The position numbers were made by a program, and so were the translations under genes. 64,000 bases of DNA from the NCBI GenBank assembly GCA_951813515.1, contig OX638346.1, positions 372,001-436,000 on the forward strand. The letters run 5' to 3'. The notes beneath the pieces were generated by a model, which searched no databases, had not been told where the DNA came from, and worked only from the letters and a program-made list of their open reading frames with translations. Numbering within the stretch: position 1 is the first letter of the stretch; each line of letters begins with the position of its first letter. Positions 45,504-59,167 of the stretch are shown piece after piece. The DNA comes from an uncultured Pseudomonadales bacterium. Its GTDB lineage: Bacteria > Pseudomonadota > Gammaproteobacteria > Pseudomonadales > Azotimanducaceae.

Positions 45504-48368
45504 TCAGCCAGGTTGCGCGGTTTCTTCGATCTGCTCGTGAATCTCGACCGTACCGGCATCGCCATCGATGGTGATCATCTGACCGTGTCCAATGCGTTTG
45601 GTCCCGTTACCGACACCCAGCACGGCAGGGATGCCGTACTCCCGGGCAACGATCGAGCCGTGCGCGAGGATGCTGCCCATGTCAGTGACGAGGCCCACAG
45701 CATGGGCGAAGAGTTGCGTCCACGCGGGCGTCGTCAGCGGTGATACCAGAATCGAACCCGGCGCCATCCTGTCGAACTCCGCGGGACCAAGGATCACACT
45801 GGCCGGGGCAGTGATGCGCCCGGAACTGACGGCAAAACCACGCATGGCGTCGCTGCTTTCGTCGTTCCTGATCTGCGTTTCCTTGAACCTTATGCCCGGC
45901 ACATTGCTGGCTTCGTCGGGCACCGTACCCGGTGGATGGTGACGTTTCCTCGCCTCCCGGAGCTCGCGGCGTTCTGACGCCAGCCTGCCCAGCTCAGGTA
46001 GCGCTTTGCCGGATCTGCGCGCTGCAATCGCCTGATCCAGTTCGTCGGTAACCAGGAAGTACGTGTCTTCCGGAGTCAGAAACGTCCCGGCTTCGACCAT
46101 ACGACGACCCAGCTCCGCCGCCATCGGGCGCAGCACCTTCCAGGTATAGCCGAAGTAGAAGGCCACCTCCTCGCGGATGTAGTTGTACTTGCGAGCCAGC
46201 CACCACCGGTATCGGAACTGCCAGTATTCGATGCCGGTCAAGAGATCCGACACCTCGGCGAACTTCTGGTCCCGGATGGCCTTCGCCCTGATCTCCTGGT
46301 TCTTCGGATCGTAGTCCGGGTCGCCCACCATGGCCTTGATCGTCGCAAACAGGGCGGACGGATCCTCTGTCTGCGTGGGCTCTACGAAATCCATGCTGTA
46401 TCCCTGGTGCCCGTAGGTGTCCAGGTATTCATCGATGCCTGCCACTACAGCGGCCACCTCGGCATCTTCGCGCGCCCTTTCGCGCAGAACGTCCATCAGA
46501 AACTGGGCGGGCGTCACGATGACCAGGTAGGTCAGTTCTTCATGGGCGCGAACCAGTTTCGCAATCTCAAAGAGATCCCGGTTCGCCTGCATGGTTTTTG
46601 ATTCGATTCCCGAGAGAAACTGACCGCTGATGTAGTTGTGATCAGGCAGGTGGTATTCCAGGAAATCCTGCAGATGGGAGTCCGTGGACTTCGCGACGCC
46701 GAACGTGTGGCTGGCATTGCTCGACCAGTAGTTCCCCTCTTCATGACCCATTTCAGTGATACCGGCGAGCAGTTCTTCATCGCTGGCCGTCGCCAGATCC
46801 AGTCTCGCCCACTTTTCACCAATACCTCTCAGGCGCGGCATCGTCTCGTCGTGCCATTCGGCCAGTTGCCGATCATTGAAGGCGGTCTTGCTGGCGAACA
46901 TATAGACCGAGGTCTCGGTCTTCGGCATGGTGACCTGGTGAGCCAGATCGTCGATGTCCGGCGATGCTGCAAATTCGCGGAAGGCCTTGCGATCTTCCTC
47001 GGAAAGATCCGCAACCATCAACTCCATATCGTGTTCTTCGTGCTCTGCTATCGACTGCTGTTGCAGTTGTGCCTTGATGGCCGCTTCCGCCTGCCTGGCA
47101 AGCGCCGCCTCCTGCGCTTCGAGATCCTCTTCGGTCACCTCCCTGGATTCCTGGTCCTTCTTCGGTTGCAGCTGCAGCCAGTCCGCCCGCTGGTATGCAA
47201 AGCCGTTCATGGTGACGAATACCGGACCGCCGCCCACCATGGGGCTTCTGTCCTTGCGTGGCATCTCCAGCCCCTCGGTCAGGTAGAGCTGTTCAAACAA
47301 CGGACAAACGGGATCCGGCATGTTTTCGACGATTTGTCGGCGAACCAGGGTTTTGGCCGGTGGTGTCGGTGTCCATTCAACCTTGATCGGCTGAACCGGG
47401 AGGTTGGTAATTGGACGTGATTGCAGCAGATGCAGCTGACCCTTCGAAAAAGCCCATTCGATATCCTGTGGCTGCCCGTCGTACAGCGCTTCGATCTTCA
47501 GCACCGTCCCAATCAACTCGGTCAGCATGTCATCGGACAACGAGGATTGATCCCGTTCTGATGCCGACACATCCTCCATTCTCACACCCTGCTCGCCGTC
47601 GGAGATGATCTTCTGCTCTTTCGGACCGATCATGGTTTCCTTGACCGTCCTGTTGGCCTTGTCGACGACATAGGTGTCAGGCGTCACCTGACCACTGACT
47701 ACCGCCTCGCCGAGACCAAAACTGGCGTTGATGACGATTTCATTGCGCTCCCCGGTGGCCGGGTTAGCGGTAAACAGAATGCCTGAAACCTCTGAAGGCA
47801 CCATGATCTGGACTACAACAGCCATCGCGACCGAATCCTGATCGATTCCGTTCTGATGCCGATAGCTGATCGCCTGCGCGGTCCACAAAGAGGCCCAACA
47901 GTTTTTCACGGCCGCGACAACCGCGTCGGCGCCTGTTACGTTGAGATAGGTTTCCTGCTGACCGGCAAATGACAGGCCAGGCAGATCTTCTGCATTTGCG
48001 GATGAACGAACCGCCACCGGGGGTTGACCATCCAGCGCCTCGTAGGCCTGTCTGATCTCAGTCGTGATTTGCGCTGCCAGGTCATTGTCAGCAAAGAGCG
48101 TCTGTATATTCGCGGAAGACTGCTCGAAAGAAGCTCTACCCTCCACCACCGCGGGTTTGGCGAGCACCAAAATCTGGTCCTGCAAGTTATTGTCGGCAAC
48201 AAACCCGCGATAGGCGGCAGTTGTGACCAGAAAACCGCTAGGCACGTGAAAACCGGCATTGGCCATCTTGGCGAGGGACCGGCCCTTACCGCCAACGACT
48301 TCAAGCGCGTCGTCTTTTGTAGAAAGTGGTGTGGTATATACCCTCTGTGGGCCAGTCCTGGTATTCAC
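45504..48368 (-). CDS. Rifampicin-phosphotransferase/PEP-synthase-like dikinase, paralogue 1
   Basis: A 954-residue protein. The N-terminal ATP-grasp (PEP/pyruvate-binding PPDK_N) domain spans about 1-330 with VVGGKGRSLAKMANAGFHVP, AVRSSANAEDLPGLSFAGQQETYLN (in part) and QSRPITN. A long divergent central domain follows, and the C-terminal swivelling phospho-histidine domain carries ILAHGSIVAREYGIPAV. The PEP-binding TIM barrel of PEP synthase is absent, so the layout matches rifampicin phosphotransferase, which moves the ATP beta-phosphate to a hydroxyl through histidine. The true substrate is unknown. GTG start with AGGAG upstream. Operon with the symporter. Confidence 0.88.
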   Translation of the reverse strand: MNTRTGPQRVYTTPLSTKDDALEVVGGKGRSLAKMANAGFHVPSGFLVTTAAYRGFVADNNLQDQILVLAKPAVVEGRASFEQSSANIQTLFADNDLAAQITTEIRQAYEALDGQPPVAVRSSANAEDLPGLSFAGQQETYLNVTGADAVVAAVKNCWASLWTAQAISYRHQNGIDQDSVAMAVVVQIMVPSEVSGILFTANPATGERNEIVINASFGLGEAVVSGQVTPDTYVVDKANRTVKETMIGPKEQKIISDGEQGVRMEDVSASERDQSSLSDDMLTELIGTVLKIEALYDGQPQDIEWAFSKGQLHLLQSRPITNLPVQPIKVEWTPTPPAKTLVRRQIVENMPDPVCPLFEQLYLTEGLEMPRKDRSPMVGGGPVFVTMNGFAYQRADWLQLQPKKDQESREVTEEDLEAQEAALARQAEAAIKAQLQQQSIAEHEEHDMELMVADLSEEDRKAFREFAASPDIDDLAHQVTMPKTETSVYMFASKTAFNDRQLAEWHDETMPRLRGIGEKWARLDLATASDEELLAGITEMGHEEGNYWSSNASHTFGVAKSTDSHLQDFLEYHLPDHNYISGQFLSGIESKTMQANRDLFEIAKLVRAHEELTYLVIVTPAQFLMDVLRERAREDAEVAAVVAGIDEYLDTYGHQGYSMDFVEPTQTEDPSALFATIKAMVGDPDYDPKNQEIRAKAIRDQKFAEVSDLLTGIEYWQFRYRWWLARKYNYIREEVAFYFGYTWKVLRPMAAELGRRMVEAGTFLTPEDTYFLVTDELDQAIAARRSGKALPELGRLASERRELREARKRHHPPGTVPDEASNVPGIRFKETQIRNDESSDAMRGFAVSSGRITAPASVILGPAEFDRMAPGSILVSPLTTPAWTQLFAHAVGLVTDMGSILAHGSIVAREYGIPAVLGVGNGTKRIGHGQMITIDGDAGTVEIHEQIEETAQPG

Positions 48369-49559: not shown

Positions 49560-49568
49560 TTGGATAGT

Positions 49569-51419
49569 ATGAAACCGGTAGACCCGAGTCCGCACCTCAA
49601 AGCCAGGGCATATCTTGTTGACACCACCCTTGTGGACGCCACCCTGGAGAAAGGCAACACCGACCCGAACGGCAAGCCGTGGGTGCCCGGGGAGCGTCGG
49701 CACCCCGGCGATGATTCACTGGTCAGGTTGTATCCGGTACCGCGTAGGGGCGATGAGGTCTCGCCCCAGGAACGAAAGACCACTCAAAATCGAGCGTTGG
49801 TTCCTATACTCTCATTGTTGTTGGCGTCGCTTCTCGCAACCCTGCCTTTGTCCGCATTCGCCGATCGGCCGAATATTCTGTGGATTGATATCGATGATCA
49901 ATCTCCCTGGTACAACGTCTATGGAGACACGACAGTCAGCACACCGAATCTGGACGCATTGGCGAGTGAGGGTGTTGCCTTTGAACGTGTATATGTAGCG
50001 GTACCCGTTTGTGCACCCAGTCGATCAGCCATGGTTACCGGCGTATATCCGATTCGGGCGGGAACGCATGATATGCGATCCGGACGTGTACCCGAATACC
50101 AGATCCACCTGCCTGACGACATCACCACAGTGCCGGAGTTATTGCGTGAGGCAGGGTATGAAACCTACAACGCCCACAAGGATGACTATAACTTCACCTA
50201 TGATCGGCGTGATCTCTTCACCATAGGCAATCCGCCGCACCCTTATTCTCCCGGTAGTCGTGTAGTCGAAGCTGGGGATGATGAGCTCAATCAGTCAATG
50301 AGCAAGCAAAGGCTGTTGGAATCGGGTCTCACTGATGAGCAAATGGCCAAAATGATGGCAGTTGGGGCATTGAAGGATCAGGGCAAAGGAAAAAGCAAAC
50401 GGGTGGCTACGGGCAACTACAAAGGACTGGTTGGAACCGGATCCTGGCGTGACGTCAAAAAAGGCCCTTTCTTCGGGCAAATGTCCATTCCTGGTGGTAA
50501 GGCCGTGGCGGGTATAGAGAAGCAGCTCCGTACGTGGGGTCTAGAGCCCGTGGATCCGGCAAAGGTCAGAGTCCCGGCTCAATATCCGGATATCCCTCAG
50601 GTCCGGCAACACGTTGCGAATCACTACAATTCCATCCTGCGTACTGACCATCGGGTTGGGGAATTGATTCAGCAATTCAAGGATGAGGGCCTGTGGGGAA
50701 ACACGGTGTTTATCCTATACAGTGATCATGGTTCAGATCTGCCCAGAAGCAAGGAATTCCTCTATGAAGAAGGTCTGCATGTTCCGTTTATCATTGCAGC
50801 ACCCGGCATGGATATCATTGAGCCGGGAAAAAGGGAAGACCTGGTAAACCTGATGGATATTGCCGCCACGACATTGGGACTTGCCGGCATTGAAGTGCCC
50901 GGGTTCATGGACGCAAAAGATGTGTTCGCCGAGGACTTCCACCGGGAGTACGTCTATTCATCGGCAGACCGGATGTCCAACGTTATCGACAGGACGCGTT
51001 CCGTGATGGGCGAACGGTTTCACTACATCAAGAACTTCATGCTGGACCGACCGCTGTATAACTGGGGGCATCGTGAAATGGCGGCTTCCATACGCGACCC
51101 GGAAGGCAAGACCACCAGTTTTATGGCTATGCGCAAGTTGGCCGAAGCGGGTCAGCTGAAGGGCGTCCACGCTGCACCTTACGGCCAACGGGTCTCTGAA
51201 GAACTCTACGACCTTCAAGAGGACCCCGACGAGGTGGTGAACCTGGCCGGCAATCCGAAGTACGAAAAGCAGCTTCTAAAGATGCGTGGCCTTCTCGATG
51301 CCTGGATAGCTGACACTGACGATAAAGGACAGTACCCGAGATCCGAGGGTGCGATGAGTGAAATTCTCGGTCGGTTTCCACCTGAATGGCTTCACAGTCC
51401 GGAGTTTCTTAAAGAATAA
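49569..51419 (+). CDS. Sulfatase with N-terminal extension and signal anchor
   Basis: A 616-residue formylglycine sulfatase. RPNILWIDIDDQSPWYNVYGD is the metal-binding start of the domain, quoted to its usual length, and Cys148 is in the modification motif VCAPSRSAMVTG. LYDLQEDPDEVVNLAG is the C-terminal block. A hydrophobic signal segment (about 78-97, ALVPILSLLLASLLATLPL) is preceded by about 75 residues of unknown kind, so translation may instead start near a TTG just before it. A TTG at 49560 is another possible start. It lies between the SDR and dikinase genes in one operon. Confidence 0.9.
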   Translation: MKPVDPSPHLKARAYLVDTTLVDATLEKGNTDPNGKPWVPGERRHPGDDSLVRLYPVPRRGDEVSPQERKTTQNRALVPILSLLLASLLATLPLSAFADRPNILWIDIDDQSPWYNVYGDTTVSTPNLDALASEGVAFERVYVAVPVCAPSRSAMVTGVYPIRAGTHDMRSGRVPEYQIHLPDDITTVPELLREAGYETYNAHKDDYNFTYDRRDLFTIGNPPHPYSPGSRVVEAGDDELNQSMSKQRLLESGLTDEQMAKMMAVGALKDQGKGKSKRVATGNYKGLVGTGSWRDVKKGPFFGQMSIPGGKAVAGIEKQLRTWGLEPVDPAKVRVPAQYPDIPQVRQHVANHYNSILRTDHRVGELIQQFKDEGLWGNTVFILYSDHGSDLPRSKEFLYEEGLHVPFIIAAPGMDIIEPGKREDLVNLMDIAATTLGLAGIEVPGFMDAKDVFAEDFHREYVYSSADRMSNVIDRTRSVMGERFHYIKNFMLDRPLYNWGHREMAASIRDPEGKTTSFMAMRKLAEAGQLKGVHAAPYGQRVSEELYDLQEDPDEVVNLAGNPKYEKQLLKMRGLLDAWIADTDDKGQYPRSEGAMSEILGRFPPEWLHSPEFLKE

Positions 51420-51448: not shown

Positions 51449-54196
51449 GTGTCCGAAGTACATATACTCCCCCTTGCTGTCACGGATGCAGATCTGAACC
51501 TGATCGGTGGCAAGGGAATGAGCCTCGCCAGTCTGTCCGCAGCTGGATTCCCTGTCCCCGATGGTTTTCACGTCAATGCCGACGCCTATCGGGCATACAT
51601 CGAGACGCATGATCTTCACGACCAACTAATGCGGCTGGCTGTACCAGCACTCGTGGATCAGCGAGTGTCCTTTGAAGCCGCATCCAATGGCATTCAGGCG
51701 ATTTTCTCGGACCACGATGTTCCCGATAGCATCGCCGGGTCAATTGCATCCGCGTACCGGTCACTCGAGGGTGCGGTTGGCGCGGTGGCGGTTCGGTCTT
51801 CGGCCAATGCCGAAGATCTGCCGGATCTGTCATTTGCGGGTCAGCAGGATACGTTTCTCAATGTACAGGGTGAGGAAGCGGTCATCGCGGCGGTGCGAGA
51901 CTGCTGGGCGTCACTGTGGACCGCGCGGGCGCTCAGCTATCGCCACGAGATGGGTATCGACAACCACCTGGTGGCGATGTCAGTGGTTGTGCAACGCATG
52001 GTGGATGCCGAGGCTGCCGGCGTGCTGTTCACAGTGAATGCCATTACGGGCAAACGCTCAGAGCTCGTCATTAACGCAAGTTTTGGGCTGGGGGAAGCGG
52101 TGGTCAGCGGGCAGGTGACGCCTGACAGTTTTACCCTTGACCGGGAAAATCTGCATGTCCGGGAGACAATGATCGGCGCCAAGGAGCAGATGATCGTTGC
52201 GGATGCGAGTGGCACAGGACTGAAAGCCACTGAAGCCATCAATGAAAAGCTACGCGACTCGGCCTCACTGTCTCCCGCACAGACGAAAGCACTTGCGGAG
52301 CTGGCGCTGAGCGTGGAAGCGCACTGGGATGGCGTGCCACAGGACATTGAATGGGCTATCGCGGACGGGAACTGCTGGCTGTTGCAATCGCGGCCGATTA
52401 CACATCTGCCGCCGCCGCCACTTGAGGCAAAATGGGCGCCGCCGTTTCCCGGGGCGAATCTGATCCGCCGGGGCTGGGTAGAGCACCTGCTGGGTCCTCT
52501 GTCGCCGCTATTTGAAACCATGTACCTGCAACTCGGACTGGAGGACGCCTTCCGGAGGCGCGCCGACGGCGCAAAAACCATGCCGATACCGCGACACATC
52601 ACGGTCAACGGCTGGGCATACTCCCGCACGGGACCAACCAAAATACTCATTCTGCAGAATCGGCTGCGAAAATGGTTGCGCGTTTCCCGGTCAGCGGTCT
52701 ACTTGTTGGCGGGTTACAAGTTCGGCTGGCTGCTGTTGTGGCGGTACCGGGGCCTGCCCTTGTACCTGTCACGAATTCGCCGCTGGCAAAAACTGAATCC
52801 AGCGTCAGCATCGGCGGAAACTCTGTACCTCGCCCTGCGCGCCCTGGTGGATGCCGATGCCGAATACTGGATGTACGCCCGTACCATGCAGGGCTTGTCC
52901 AAGATAGCCAACGCAGGCATGACCCGTTTTCTCTCGGAGCATGCAGGCGATGCCGGGTTTCTTCTAGGGAAGGATAACGCGCTAGGTGCGCAGTCCACTG
53001 ATCTGCTCTGTGGGTATCCATCGAAGACAAATGATGCCCTCGTCGAACTGGCGCGTATCGCAAAGTCCATTCGTGATGACGATCAACTCAAGACCCTGGT
53101 GCTGACGACACCCGTCAAGCGTCTCATGGCAACGCTGGAAACCAAGGCGAAGGACACGGCGAGAGACATCGAGAGTTATCTGGACAGGTATGGGCAGCAG
53201 ATCTTCACACTGGACTTTGTTGAACCGACGCTGCGCGAGGCGCCTGTCGCGATGTTATCCAATCTGCAGTTCATGGTTGCGGGCACCGGCAACCTCGACC
53301 CGGTGGCATCACAGGCCCAGGCGCAGCGGCGCCGCAAGATAGTCGCGACCGAGGTGCTGGCGCATCTCGATGAACCTGTGCGCAGTCGGTTTAGAAGGCA
53401 GTATCGAAGTGCTTCGAGGGACTCGCGGTACCGCGAGGATGCGATGTTTCACATGGGTGCTGCCTGGGCGGTGTTCCGACCGTTGGCGCTGGAACTAGGT
53501 CGCCGCCTTGCAAAAGTCGGTACGCTGTCGACTGCCGACGACATCTTCTACCTGACCAACGATGAATTGCTGGTCGCATTGGAACCCTTGACCGCGGATG
53601 GGCGACCCGGCCGAATCGCGTCGTGGGCGATGCGGATAACCGCTAGAGCACTATTGGGTCCTGATGCGGCGGAGCAGATGCTTCGCGGCAAAAACAAGGT
53701 CAATCAACAGCCGGATCTCGCCATCCACGGCCTGAAGGAAAAAGCCCGAGAGCAGCGACAGTTGCGGGAAGCCCGGAAACGCCTTCACCCCCCGGCAACC
53801 ATCCCCAGCGCCTACATCGAAAAGGCCAGGGCCGTGATGACCCAGCACGCCAACGAGGATGAAACCGCAGACGTGATCAGCGGTTTTGCGACCAGCGGCG
53901 GCACCATTTCCGCCCACGCGTCCGTGCTGTCTTCGCCGGAGGATTTCGACCGAATGAGACCGGGATCGATTCTGGTCTGTCCGTTCACCACGCCGGCATG
54001 GACCCAGTTATTTGCACAGGCAGCGGGTCTGGTCACAGACATTGGCGGAGTTGGTGGGCATGGCTCTATCGTGGCACGCGAATACGGTATTCCCGCGGTC
54101 ATGGGAACAGGGGTGGGCACCAGCCGCATCAGCCATGGGCAGCGGATCACAGTCGATGGCGATGCCGGTACGGTGACGTTGCACGACTCGAGCTAG
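51449..54196 (+). CDS. Rifampicin-phosphotransferase/PEP-synthase-like dikinase, paralogue 2
   Basis: A 915-residue paralogue of the protein at 45504-48368 with the same order of parts: ATP-grasp domain (LIGGKGMSLASLSAAGFPVP, AVRSSANAEDLPDLSFAG, QSRPITHLPPPP), divergent central domain, and C-terminal phospho-histidine domain with GGVGGHGSIVAREYGIPAV. The central region differs most, including a basic hydrophobic stretch near 405-445 (VYLLAGYKFGWLLLWRYRG), which suggests different substrates for the two. GTG start. Last gene of the SDR-sulfatase operon. Phosphorylation of an organic substrate is inferred from family architecture. Confidence 0.88.
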   Translation: MSEVHILPLAVTDADLNLIGGKGMSLASLSAAGFPVPDGFHVNADAYRAYIETHDLHDQLMRLAVPALVDQRVSFEAASNGIQAIFSDHDVPDSIAGSIASAYRSLEGAVGAVAVRSSANAEDLPDLSFAGQQDTFLNVQGEEAVIAAVRDCWASLWTARALSYRHEMGIDNHLVAMSVVVQRMVDAEAAGVLFTVNAITGKRSELVINASFGLGEAVVSGQVTPDSFTLDRENLHVRETMIGAKEQMIVADASGTGLKATEAINEKLRDSASLSPAQTKALAELALSVEAHWDGVPQDIEWAIADGNCWLLQSRPITHLPPPPLEAKWAPPFPGANLIRRGWVEHLLGPLSPLFETMYLQLGLEDAFRRRADGAKTMPIPRHITVNGWAYSRTGPTKILILQNRLRKWLRVSRSAVYLLAGYKFGWLLLWRYRGLPLYLSRIRRWQKLNPASASAETLYLALRALVDADAEYWMYARTMQGLSKIANAGMTRFLSEHAGDAGFLLGKDNALGAQSTDLLCGYPSKTNDALVELARIAKSIRDDDQLKTLVLTTPVKRLMATLETKAKDTARDIESYLDRYGQQIFTLDFVEPTLREAPVAMLSNLQFMVAGTGNLDPVASQAQAQRRRKIVATEVLAHLDEPVRSRFRRQYRSASRDSRYREDAMFHMGAAWAVFRPLALELGRRLAKVGTLSTADDIFYLTNDELLVALEPLTADGRPGRIASWAMRITARALLGPDAAEQMLRGKNKVNQQPDLAIHGLKEKAREQRQLREARKRLHPPATIPSAYIEKARAVMTQHANEDETADVISGFATSGGTISAHASVLSSPEDFDRMRPGSILVCPFTTPAWTQLFAQAAGLVTDIGGVGGHGSIVAREYGIPAVMGTGVGTSRISHGQRITVDGDAGTVTLHDSS

Positions 54197-54273: not shown

Positions 54274-55449
54274 TTACTCTCTACCCGCTGGAGCCAGGCC
54301 AAACCAAATCGATTGATCCGCATCACTATCTCGCATCGCCCGTCGGGCCTTTAAGATAATCTGGCCTGCCTCAGTTCCATCGTAAAACCATTCCTCGGTT
54401 GCCCATGGGCCTATAGGGCCCTCTGCCAGTTCACAGGCCAGTTCTTCATAGTAGGTTCGTATGTCGTGAACCGTTCCATACATTGATCTGGCTGGAAACC
54501 CAACTTCGTCCCAGCGTTCTCCCTCGACTATTCTCACAAATCTTTCCAGCGCTTCGGGAACTTGCTCAGCACTGATTTTCATTCCTACAGAGGTTCTTCT
54601 GTTCCTTTGATATGCACGGTCATAGGCCGCTTTCAAGCCTTGGGCCTCATCTACGGCGGGATGCAGCTCAGTGTTCATTCTTGGCGGAAGTGAGCAAACC
54701 AGTGGCTCGCCGCCAGTTGAGCTTATGCTAACAGGAAACTCCCTGATAACTGGACCTTCGGGTTCCTCCAGCAAATCAAATGCAGCTTGCAAAACCTCAT
54801 ACTGGAATTGTTTGTCTCTTGGTTTCCCCAGTGACAGACCTACCGGAAAATCTGTGTGGAGGGCTCTCGGAACTTTCGTGCGTTCCGCCACTTCTCTCAT
54901 CGGGGTGATGACGACAGTTGACAGACCCGCTGATTCGAAGACGTGGGCAAGCGTACACAAGGTACGCGGACAAAGAGGTCATGTACCTGTTAGCAAAACA
55001 ACGTCTACGCCCTCTTTCAGCATTTCCTTGGCGCAAAGCGGCCCGGTATCCAAGCGAATTTCCGATACGGTTGGCGACTGGTTACCAGCGAAAGCGTAGT
55101 GCTTTTCCGCCACTCCACCGATGAAATCGTCTTCAGCAAGTTCCTCAAGGCGATCAATTGGATAGACAACATTGATATCAGCCGCGAAACCGCCACGATC
55201 AAAGTTGACGCTATGATGTCCGAGAGTTAAATCCCTGGCGTGTCTGGGTAACGTTTCGTAATGATAGTCACTGTCACCGAGTTCAAAACCATCCCCACCT
55301 TCTCGATATAGAGCGGCAGTTGTGACAATGGCAACCTTGGCAAGATTTAACGGCTTTGGTTCATTGAAGCTGCTCTCGCCGAATTCTGGTAGAGGCACAC
55401 TTGCCGAGAACTTCCGCATCGCAGCTTTGTCTTTTCCAAAAACACTCAT
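54274..55449 (-). CDS. GrdB-like reductase selenoprotein with in-frame UGA (Sec157)
   Basis: A 391-residue protein of the glycine/betaine/sarcosine/D-proline reductase selenoprotein B family if the TGA at 54979-54981 encodes selenocysteine. Two open readings join in frame across it: VDVVLLTGT-U-PLCPRTLC then TLAHVFESAGLSTVVIT. In clostridial GrdB the same place reads VLTSTUGTCTRC followed by a similar helix, so U-x-x-C is conserved. KVAIVTTAALYREGG and HHSVNFDRGG also fit the GrdB C-terminal domain. The protein lacks the N-terminal half of clostridial GrdB. A perfect hairpin follows the TGA. Its substrate in this organism is unknown. Confidence 0.87.
54951..54978 (-). promoter_or_regulatory. 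Candidate bacterial SECIS element of the GrdB-like gene
   Basis: On the coding strand the TGA is followed after 11 nt by GCGTAC-CTTGT-GTACGC, a perfect 6-bp stem with a 5-nt loop (hairpin at 54951-54967). The loop begins 17 nt after the TGA, within the 16-37 nt range for bacterial SECIS elements. The loop lacks the usual early G unless the closing pair is open. Confidence 0.6.
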
Positions 55450-55637: not shown

Positions 55638-56681
55638 TTACGTTGAACTGGCGTGCCCCTTCCTGATCTTCTGAATTTTCTCCAGAACGTCAATCAAATA
55701 GAGCGACTCTTCCCTCCCAAATTGCGGACATTCAGGCAGGCCCGCGGCCAGGCAGCGATGTACTGCTTCAGTCTGATAGAGAAAACCCTGTTGATTCGGA
55801 TAGGCCATGGGGATGCTCACGGATTCAGGTGTCGGGTATTCAAATCGATGCGCCGGTGCCGGCGTATTGGCATCCATGTAGCGTGACGGAACTTTCTGCG
55901 GCACACGAATCGTGATGGTCGTGGGGCAATGGGCCGGTTGTTCCAGAGTAATTCGTCCCTTGGAGCCGATGATCTCAGTGACTTCCGCGAATTCACTCGG
56001 ATAATGGATGAAGGACAGCACCGCACTCCTATCGTCAGAGTAGCCGAGTATCCCATGTCGACTGGTAGCCACAATGGACTCCGGCATCGCTTCAATACCG
56101 AAGGCCAGGACTGCCGCCTGAATCGTATAGATGGCATCGAAGTCCGCCTGCACCATCAGCACATCCCCAATCATGCCCTGCTCGAGCGCCCATCGGGCGT
56201 GTTCCACAGCCGGAAAGAACCGGGTCCAGAGGCCATGCTGAAGCATCACTCCCTGCCTGGCTGCAGCCTCATACATCTCTCTGGCGTCCGCGGATTCGCC
56301 GCCCATGGGTTTCTCGCACAACACATGTTTACCCGCCTCAACGGCAAGCAGGACGTGCTCCTTGTGAAGCGTATGTATGGTGCCTATATAGACGATGTCC
56401 ACATCAGGGGACGCCAGCATCTCGGCGTAACTGCCATAAGCGGACTCAATATCATGCTGAGCGGCGAAGTCCTCTGCGCGTTCTTTCGAGCGGGCCGCAA
56501 CAGCACTCACAGTCGCGCCTTTGCAGGCTCTGGTCGCCAGCGCCCACTGCCTCGAGATTTGCCCGGCACCAATAATGCCCCACCGCAATGGGAAGGCATC
56601 ATCATTCGGGTCTGTCAGGCCCAGACGAACATCCATGGGTGCAGACGGAGACAGCCCCGCCTCATCGTGTTGTGTTTTCAA
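55638..56681 (-). CDS. Gfo/Idh/MocA-family oxidoreductase
   Basis: A 347-residue NAD(P)-dependent oxidoreductase. WGIIGAGQISRQWA is the nucleotide-binding motif (about residues 34-47), YIGTIHTLHKEHVLLAVEAGKHVLCEKPM, quoted from its two ends, carries the conserved EKP lysine, and GLWTRFFPAVEHARW is the typical start of the C-terminal domain. Members oxidise or dehydrate sugars and cyclic polyols, and trans-dihydrodiol dehydrogenases belong here. It sits next to the selenoprotein and sulfatase genes, suggesting catabolism of a ring or sugar compound (inference). Confidence 0.92.
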   Translation of the reverse strand: MKTQHDEAGLSPSAPMDVRLGLTDPNDDAFPLRWGIIGAGQISRQWALATRACKGATVSAVAARSKERAEDFAAQHDIESAYGSYAEMLASPDVDIVYIGTIHTLHKEHVLLAVEAGKHVLCEKPMGGESADAREMYEAAARQGVMLQHGLWTRFFPAVEHARWALEQGMIGDVLMVQADFDAIYTIQAAVLAFGIEAMPESIVATSRHGILGYSDDRSAVLSFIHYPSEFAEVTEIIGSKGRITLEQPAHCPTTITIRVPQKVPSRYMDANTPAPAHRFEYPTPESVSIPMAYPNQQGFLYQTEAVHRCLAAGLPECPQFGREESLYLIDVLEKIQKIRKGHASST

Positions 56682-57513: not shown

Positions 57514-57751
57514 GGGCCTGTCTCATCCACTGCGTACGCCAGCGAGTTTCTCATGCCTGCGGGCGGGCAAGTAGATGCAAACGACCGGGATGCGACGTCA
57601 CACCCGAAATGGGGGAACTCGAACCACTCTGAATTGACCCCCGGAACAGTGTTTGCCAACCTGATCGGGCATGAGATGAACGACCTGTTGGCGACGTTAT
57701 GCGAAGCGTTGTTTGCAGCAGTTCCGGGAGCACATCGGCAGTCAGGTCACC

Positions 57752-59167
57752 ATGGCGAACAAAAGACCCAACATTCTCTGGATATACATCGAAGACCAGG
57801 ATCCGAGATACGGATGCTACGGCGAGACGCTGGTGGAAACGCCCAACATAGACGCCCTCGCAGCCGAGGGCGTGGTATTCGAGCGGGCTTACTCGCCGGC
57901 GCCGGTGTGCAGCCCCAGCCGCTCGGCGGTCATTACCGGCAGCTACGCGATTCGTCTGGGCACCCATGTCCAGCGCTCGAGCCGCTTTCCCGGCGAAGAG
58001 ATCTGCCTGCCGGAGGACCACAAGACCGTACCGGAGGTCTTCCGCGATGCCGGCTACTTCACCTTCAACAACGGCAAGGACGACTACAACTTCGCCCGTG
58101 ATCGAAGCATGTTGTATACCGCCGGCAACGATGCGCGGGAGCCGGACGGCAAGGTAAACGGCGGGGTGAGCCTGCAACGCGGCAGCGGCGACTGGCGCGA
58201 GTGTCCCGCCGATACGCCCTTCTTCGCACAGATACAGACCAACGGCGGCAAGGACGGCTACACGGCCGAGCAGGCATCGGAAATCCTGCAGCGTCTGGGG
58301 GTCGAGGATCCGGAACTCGTCAACCCTGACGATGTCACCGTGCCACCGCAATATCCGGACATTCCGGAAATGCGCGAGATGGTCGCCAACCAGCTCAACA
58401 CCATGCTGGTCAGCGACATCCTCGTGGGTCAGACGATCGAGCGCCTGAAGGCGGACGGACATTGGGGCAACACCATCATCTTCTTCCTGAGCGACCACGG
58501 CGCACTGTTCCCGCGCGCCAAGCAGATGTGCTACGAGGAGGGCCTGCACGTACCGTTGATGGCGGCCGCGCCGGGCATGCCGGACTTCCAGAAGCTGATC
58601 CCGCCGGGCACGCGGCGCAAGGAACCGGTCGCCACCCTGGACGTGGGCGCCACCTCACTGGAACTCGCCGGGATCACGGTGCCGGAGTACATGGACTCCG
58701 CCAACCTGTTCGAGGGACCCCAGCGCGAGCATGTGTTCTCGGCAAGGGACCGCTGCGAATGGGTGGTGGACAGGACCCGAAGCGCCATCGGTGACCGCTA
58801 TCACTACATCAGGAATTTCATGACCGACCGGCCCGTCGCGCAGCCCAATTTCCGCGACGTGTGGCCGGCGATCATCAAAACCCGGGAGATGTATGAACGC
58901 GGCGAGCTGACACCGGCCCAGGCAGCGGCCTATGGACCGAGGCCGGCGGAAGAACTGTACGATCTGCAGGAGGATCCACACGAAACGGTCAACCTGGCGG
59001 ACGACCCCGACCACCAGGAAATCCTCTCGGCCATGCGCGCGCTCGTGGAGGCCTGGATCGTGGATACGGATGACCGGGGGCAATACCCGGAATCGAAAGC
59101 GGCGCTCGCGGTCACCAAGAAGCAGTTTCGGAGGTGGTGCACGGACCCGATATTCGATGATGTTTGA
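57752..59167 (+). CDS. Sulfatase without signal peptide
   Basis: A 471-residue formylglycine sulfatase. RPNILWIYIEDQDPRYGCYGE opens the domain (first residues only are invariant), Cys53 lies in VCSPSRSAVITGSY, FFLSDHGALFPRAK holds later metal ligands and LYDLQEDPHETVNLAD is the C-terminal block. Similarity to the sulfatase at 49569 runs through whole blocks, so they are paralogues. The ATG at 57752 starts directly at the catalytic domain, so this one should be cytoplasmic; an in-frame TTG 39 bp upstream adds no signal peptide. Confidence 0.9.
   Translation: MANKRPNILWIYIEDQDPRYGCYGETLVETPNIDALAAEGVVFERAYSPAPVCSPSRSAVITGSYAIRLGTHVQRSSRFPGEEICLPEDHKTVPEVFRDAGYFTFNNGKDDYNFARDRSMLYTAGNDAREPDGKVNGGVSLQRGSGDWRECPADTPFFAQIQTNGGKDGYTAEQASEILQRLGVEDPELVNPDDVTVPPQYPDIPEMREMVANQLNTMLVSDILVGQTIERLKADGHWGNTIIFFLSDHGALFPRAKQMCYEEGLHVPLMAAAPGMPDFQKLIPPGTRRKEPVATLDVGATSLELAGITVPEYMDSANLFEGPQREHVFSARDRCEWVVDRTRSAIGDRYHYIRNFMTDRPVAQPNFRDVWPAIIKTREMYERGELTPAQAAAYGPRPAEELYDLQEDPHETVNLADDPDHQEILSAMRALVEAWIVDTDDRGQYPESKAALAVTKKQFRRWCTDPIFDDV

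Follow-up and report, generated by a model that had tools for sequence, protein, structure and literature searches.

On the minus strand of the window (the whole stretch of 64,000 nucleotides that was analysed), the gene at 55449–54274 is predicted to be read through an in-frame TGA as selenocysteine (Sec), and would give one 391-residue selenoprotein. This protein, a member of the PrdB/GrdB superfamily, is likely a selenol/thiol reductase that stands alone. That the gene encodes a selenoprotein is, as a prediction, close to certain. A function distinct from those of both PrdB and GrdB, which belong to the proline and glycine reductases of clostridia, appears probable, and the detailed reductase scheme set out below is offered tentatively. 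The sequences show an open frame, an exchange of TGA and Cys codons at residue 157, a conserved hairpin whose stem covaries, the genes for Sec decoding, and that the gene belongs to a group with its own C-terminal part. The features referred to in the text are the following, with the basis of each assignment in brackets where one applies.

54274..55449, minus strand: predicted selenoprotein gene of 391 codons, the 157th for Sec, followed by a TAA stop (open frame and homologues)
54979..54981, minus strand: in-frame TGA at residue 157, predicted Sec codon, in a UxxC motif with Cys160 (TGA or Cys in the loci)
54951..54967, minus strand: SECIS-like hairpin, 6 bp with the 5-nt loop CUUGU, starting 11 nt 3′ of the TGA (covariation, synonymous constraint, loop survey)
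54763..55359, minus strand: PrdB/GrdB-like core, residues 31–229, Rossmann-like in the predicted model (family models and predicted model)
54277..54762, minus strand: C-terminal part, residues 230–391, for the most part helical as modelled (unmatched in Pfam and NCBIfam; predicted models)
54274..54960, minus strand: mechanical ORF with a TTG start, 228 aa, the 3′ part of the selenoprotein gene, which a gene caller could report alone
55638..56681, minus strand: upstream Gfo/Idh/MocA oxidoreductase gene on the same strand, with 188 nt between the genes

The in-frame TGA and the Sec-decoding genes

The frame runs from an ATG at 55449 to a TAA at 54276–54274, and the TGA at 54981–54979 is the sole stop that interrupts its 391 residues; the initial annotation, which had joined two minus-strand readings in frame across this TGA, was correct in this respect. 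By themselves, the frame, the TGA and the hairpin (GCGTAC-CTTGT-GTACGC at 54967–54951, or GCGUAC-CUUGU-GUACGC as RNA) are weak to modest evidence, since a perfect 6-bp hairpin at similar spacing accompanies 55 of the 1698 TGA trinucleotides in the window (~3%), long open frames flank 11 of the TGA stops in the window, and the fold of the single hairpin sequence is unremarkable (z −1.37, with 16 of 200 shuffles folding equally well). The hairpin was for these reasons rejected as evidence on its own. What appears to lift the observation far above chance is the comparison with relatives, i.e., the TGA/Cys exchange at residue 157, the covariation of the hairpin, synonymous constraint, purifying selection, and the presence of selA, selB, tRNA-Sec and selD.

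The codon at residue 157 was followed in 50 loci, counting the window, whose sequence spans it, and was TGA in 43, TGT in four and TGC in three, which bears out the earlier placement of the TGA at the Sec residue of the family. These loci comprise the window and 12 close TGA orthologues of the 391-aa type (70–91% identical), three close orthologues with TGT (about 70% identical), and also more distant paralogues of several lengths. The count leaves out one locus in which the Sec site is not covered (L033), the window’s own copy (L009) and a duplicate (L013, the same gene as L010), and seven of the 37 matches in the order sample, which were assigned no locus, are likewise absent from it. One TGA was carried by 36 of these 37 matches and by four of the seven matches in the class sample. 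A quick tree of 58 chosen rows requires at least three changes of the Sec label, two of them forced by well-supported branches. On two SAR92 contigs, the Sec form (TGA, L029) and the Cys form (TGT, L032) lie among the same neighbours, and this natural pair is a ready test of the benefit of selenium.

Database relatives were examined as the best 120 of 226. Among the 50 long ones (260 aa or more), the aligned position holds Cys in 47 and Gly or Ala in three, one of which (P0113) covers just 37% of the query; in the 39 closest long relatives (344–396 aa) it is Cys throughout. Cys or Sec at position 157 was what the initial annotation had proposed looking for in homologues. Another 70 of the 120 are truncated at the N-terminus; their first residue falls shortly after the TGA, at 159, 164, 170 or 174 of the query, and among the matches listed they are called “hypothetical protein” wherever an NCBI or JGI name is given. 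We infer that they are pieces of Sec genes, as a gene caller starting after the TGA would yield, and the 3′ part thus seems to be entered in the database under the name of a short hypothetical protein. The Cys relatives, again among the matches listed, bear the names “D-proline reductase” or “glycine/sarcosine/betaine reductase selenoprotein B family”. Comparison with four orthologues gave dN values of 0.04–0.11 and dS values of 0.21–1.21, i.e., purifying selection both before and after the TGA.

All four Sec-decoding genes that the initial annotation had suggested searching for were found in the same genome. selA, selB and tRNA-Sec follow in a row from G000:C1:3877315 onwards, with selD elsewhere, and the protein matches lie well over their cut-offs (selA 545.9 bits against 268, selB 408.7–409.9 against 242, selD 275.6 against 125); the tRNA-Sec represents selC. 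Across 390 genomes of the order, selA was found above its cut-off in 22 of the 23 genomes with a TGA copy and in 34 of the 367 without one (Fisher p 9e-20, indicative only since the genomes are related). The sole exception among the 23 (G572, locus L050) has a TGA-bearing PrdB-like gene and no selA match, perhaps through incompleteness of the assembly. In another genome (G293), the match to a PrdB-like TGA gene and the selA match are ~315 bp apart in opposite orientation. Neither of the two outcomes that had been named as counting against a selenoprotein, unrelated residues at this position in homologues or absence of all Sec-decoding genes from a complete genome, occurred.

The hairpin downstream of the TGA

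The perfect 6-bp hairpin at SECIS spacing described in the initial annotation was found at the same place, 11 nt after the TGA, and its stem covaries. It was aligned in 42 of the 43 TGA sequences, 40 of them distinct, one (L028) being left out because of an N. Standard pairs are formed in 96.3% of the 240 stem cells, 70 cells are changed on both sides (24.5 in shuffles), and the covariation score is 0.701 (0.193 in shuffles); none of 500 shuffles reached any of these three values. Two weaker measures were also scored: five of the six pairs show change on both sides, a value reached by 6 of 500 shuffles, and the number of further pair types, 11, is no higher than in the shuffles, 373 of 500 of which reach it. 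Control stems slid along the alignment were 5–53% paired, and in the seven Cys sequences 29 of 42 stem cells were paired, which is about the shuffle level. The same stretch is constrained at synonymous sites: among 13 Sec orthologues, codons 161–166 have a synonymous identity of 0.97 against a gene mean of 0.487 and rank first of 377 windows along the gene. Three close Cys orthologues use other codons at 162–164.

Stricter SECIS rules want a G within the first two positions of the loop. A G at loop position 2 is present in 35 of the 40 distinct sequences, whereas the window gene and its four nearest orthologues have the loop CUUGU (54957–54961), which is without it and does not satisfy these rules. 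The two kinds of loop differ at codon 164, which is TTG (Leu) in this group of five, whereas the eight remaining Sec orthologues of the comparison have GTG (Val). The loop of the window clade keeps a G at position 4 and so has the small, guanosine-containing form named in the available text of the Sargasso Sea survey, whose authors describe a SECIS hairpin directly downstream of the UGA with such a loop (PMC1088965). In the second PrdB-like TGA gene of the same genome (L010) the loop is of the common kind, CGUGA.

Family placement and competing readings

The initial annotation had seen in the joined protein a shortened relative of GrdB. The family models led to a different picture. The GRDB domain of Pfam (PF07355) matches residues 8–156 with 33.3 bits and passes its gathering score of 22. 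The PrdB model TIGR04483 gives the best family match, with 121.2 bits, and its curated cut-off of 300 is not reached; the GrdB models give 45.2 bits or less, the highest being TIGR01918 (glycine/betaine/sarcosine reductase selenoprotein B), likewise under its cut-off of 65.45. Other members of the group (in L020, L069 and L013) also fall under the PrdB cut-off. Residues 31–229 align with positions 24–220 of TIGR04483, while for residues 230–391 neither the GrdB and PrdB models nor anything else in Pfam or NCBIfam gave a match, and this C-terminal part gave no clear match in the PDB. The reported alignment with the C-terminal domain of GrdB is thus sound up to about residue 229 and does not extend into residues 230–391. 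As judged from these models, the protein is best described as a PrdB-like core followed by some 160 C-terminal residues of a distinct kind, and the description “GrdB-like, shortened” is abandoned.

The protein resembles PrdB in the alignment of the core and in the Sec or Cys of the UxxC motif, UxxC being given as the motif of the PrdB family in the accessible part of a published account (PMC13188914). With GrdB, GrdF and GrdH it shares the Pfam match and the alignment to the C-terminal half of the GrdB models, but it is without the N-terminal half of GrdB, has a different C-terminus, and no GrdE was found beside it in a search that had no positive control. A further relative is FarB, which in the text available is the proposed fluoroacetate reductase component of the rumen bacterium Cloacibacillus; its GrdB-type Sec is proposed to attack a substrate that is not an amino acid. 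FarB is said to serve in dehalorespiration and has a GrdE-type partner, FarE, in its operon (PMC10838667), whereas no such partner was found here.

A selenoprotein with a thiol-repair or peroxide-type role, the UxxC motif serving a general thiol oxidoreductase and not a substrate-cleaving reductase, is unlikely. The motif is similar to those of thioredoxin-type proteins, and PDB profiles gave weak matches over the Sec site to glutaredoxins (E 0.45 and 0.47, residues 150–182) and to a protein disulfide oxidoreductase (E 0.82, residues 133–171). These E-values are not significant, however, and an unrelated kinesin stands in the same list at 0.52; the large conserved core, the C-terminal part and the dioxygenase and catabolic neighbours of some relatives also speak against it.

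Less probable still is that the selenoprotein is a true D-proline reductase PrdB which splits D-proline together with a diverged PrdA-type pyruvoyl subunit. Its best family match is indeed TIGR04483, JGI calls several of the Cys relatives “D-proline reductase (dithiol) PrdB”, and the marine surveys, in the text available, class UxxC selenoproteins as proline reductase PrdB, with pfam07355 in the GOS paper. Yet the score of 121 bits is far under the cut-off of 300, and the protein has 391 aa, including the additional C-terminal part, against 238 positions in the model. The partner subunits did not appear either: PF09338 (GrdE-type partner) had no match in the own genome (0/1) or in 299 genomes of the phylum, a search without a positive control; TIGR04480 (PrdA) had none in the own genome, and this model rang in no control genome either; and for the nine neighbours in the window that were scanned, the matches listed include no PrdA or GrdE family. 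The genome also holds three COX1-type genes, which point to oxygen respiration.

That the TGA is a real stop, with the second half started at the TTG at 54960 or dead, is highly improbable: a mechanical ORF does begin there, many proteins of 218–243 aa of this kind are among the database matches listed, and UGA can always terminate some chains, but across the 50 loci the TGA persists in species that have diverged, and Cys codons are all that takes its place; the supposed start lies within the conserved hairpin, the Cys forms are intact in a single frame, and a decayed gene or two separate proteins were rejected on this codon exchange, the synonymous constraint and the dN/dS on both sides of the TGA.

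Neighbours, possible reaction and marine relatives

The neighbours of the gene vary among its relatives. In three intermediate relatives (L067–L069) a TauD-type dioxygenase gene comes next, with gaps of 4, 4 and −3 nt, the last being an overlap, and in five others (L024, L025, L026, L028, L034) a PhyH-type gene lies 45–54 nt downstream of the TGA gene; in L022, PhyH-type genes begin 269 nt downstream. In the same five loci the PhyH-type gene is followed by a convergent gene of the ADP-ribosylglycohydrolase family. The window gene has no dioxygenase neighbour and is flanked by the upstream Gfo/Idh/MocA gene and a convergent dikinase-like gene. A relative of the former is present in L031, ~5 kb downstream of the Cys form there.

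The sulfatases and dikinase-like genes, which the initial annotation had mentioned beside the gene, say little on its role, since no relative of them was found near the gene in the 37 other loci compared, some of which are short stretches. Both dikinase-like proteins (45504–48368, minus strand, and 51449–54196, plus strand) carry PPDK_N and PEP-utiliser domains at their ends and a long middle without a Pfam match, and among the NCBIfam models listed, those for PEP synthase, prodigiosin ligase and Rph types have cut-offs that neither protein reaches. The two sulfatase genes (49560–51419 and 57713–59167) have SDR genes and a gene for a GPH-type sugar symporter nearby; this region may be a locus for sulfated glycans that has no link to the selenoprotein.

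The retained UxxC motif, the COX1-type genes, the dioxygenase neighbours in relatives and a search that, without a positive control, found neither PrdA nor GrdE favour a reductase that stands alone and acts on a small electrophile in aerobic catabolism. The idea that the protein serves a different reductive step from the anaerobic reduction of amino acids is likewise preferred. In the scheme, SelB would bind the hairpin and deliver Sec-tRNA. Sec157, placed between a β strand and a helix in the predicted model, would then attack an electrophilic substrate, Cys160 of the UxxC motif would resolve the adduct by forming a selenenylsulfide, and the enzyme may be regenerated by thioredoxin or another dithiol. 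For glycine and D-proline reductase, the published text available describes a presumed attack of the selenolate on the carbon of the substrate, which in proline reductase is bound as a pyruvoyl adduct, and cleavage of the resulting selenoether by a thiol (PMC10298544). Since the search, which had no positive control, turned up no pyruvoyl partner, the substrate here is predicted to be a small electrophilic molecule of aerobic catabolism rather than an amino acid bound as a Schiff base.

Selenoproteins of this kind may have been recorded from seawater for some time. In the portions of the surveys at hand, 42 UxxC selenoproteins of the Sargasso Sea were given as proline reductase PrdB (PMC1088965), as were 235 in the GOS survey, under pfam07355 (PMC2398784), and proline reductase made up 6.4% of the selenoprotein genes in a later large GOS marine survey (PMC9402790). 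They share seawater and the UxxC motif with the group described here, and in that text they are named proline reductase without full-length architecture or genome context. The window gene probably belongs with them, an assignment made without comparing the survey sequences. The present analysis adds the architecture of the full-length protein, its scores under the PrdB and GrdB cut-offs, its genome context and the exceptional loop. If the groups are the same, this would be a common marine use of selenium without a known reaction. It is conceivable, if somewhat less likely than not as a whole, that one of the commoner selenoproteins of the ocean, classed as proline reductase since 2005, is in fact another enzyme. 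It would be a selenol reductase that works alone in marine bacteria respiring oxygen; it would have given up the pyruvoyl partner, acquired a C-terminal domain of its own and multiplied into several Sec-bearing paralogues per genome, and in some lineages Fe(II)/2-oxoglutarate dioxygenases would join it in a catabolic step that is new.

Further copies were seen in single genomes. In the genome of the window, the second PrdB-like gene (L013:5680-6429; G000:C1:1694625-1695263), which is shorter and also interrupted by an in-frame TGA, is 31% identical and lies near acyl-CoA ligase-like, ApbA-type reductase and thiolase-like genes. A 2.8-Mb genome of the same family (G309) has four PrdB-like matches with one TGA each, in L041, L058 and two further places.
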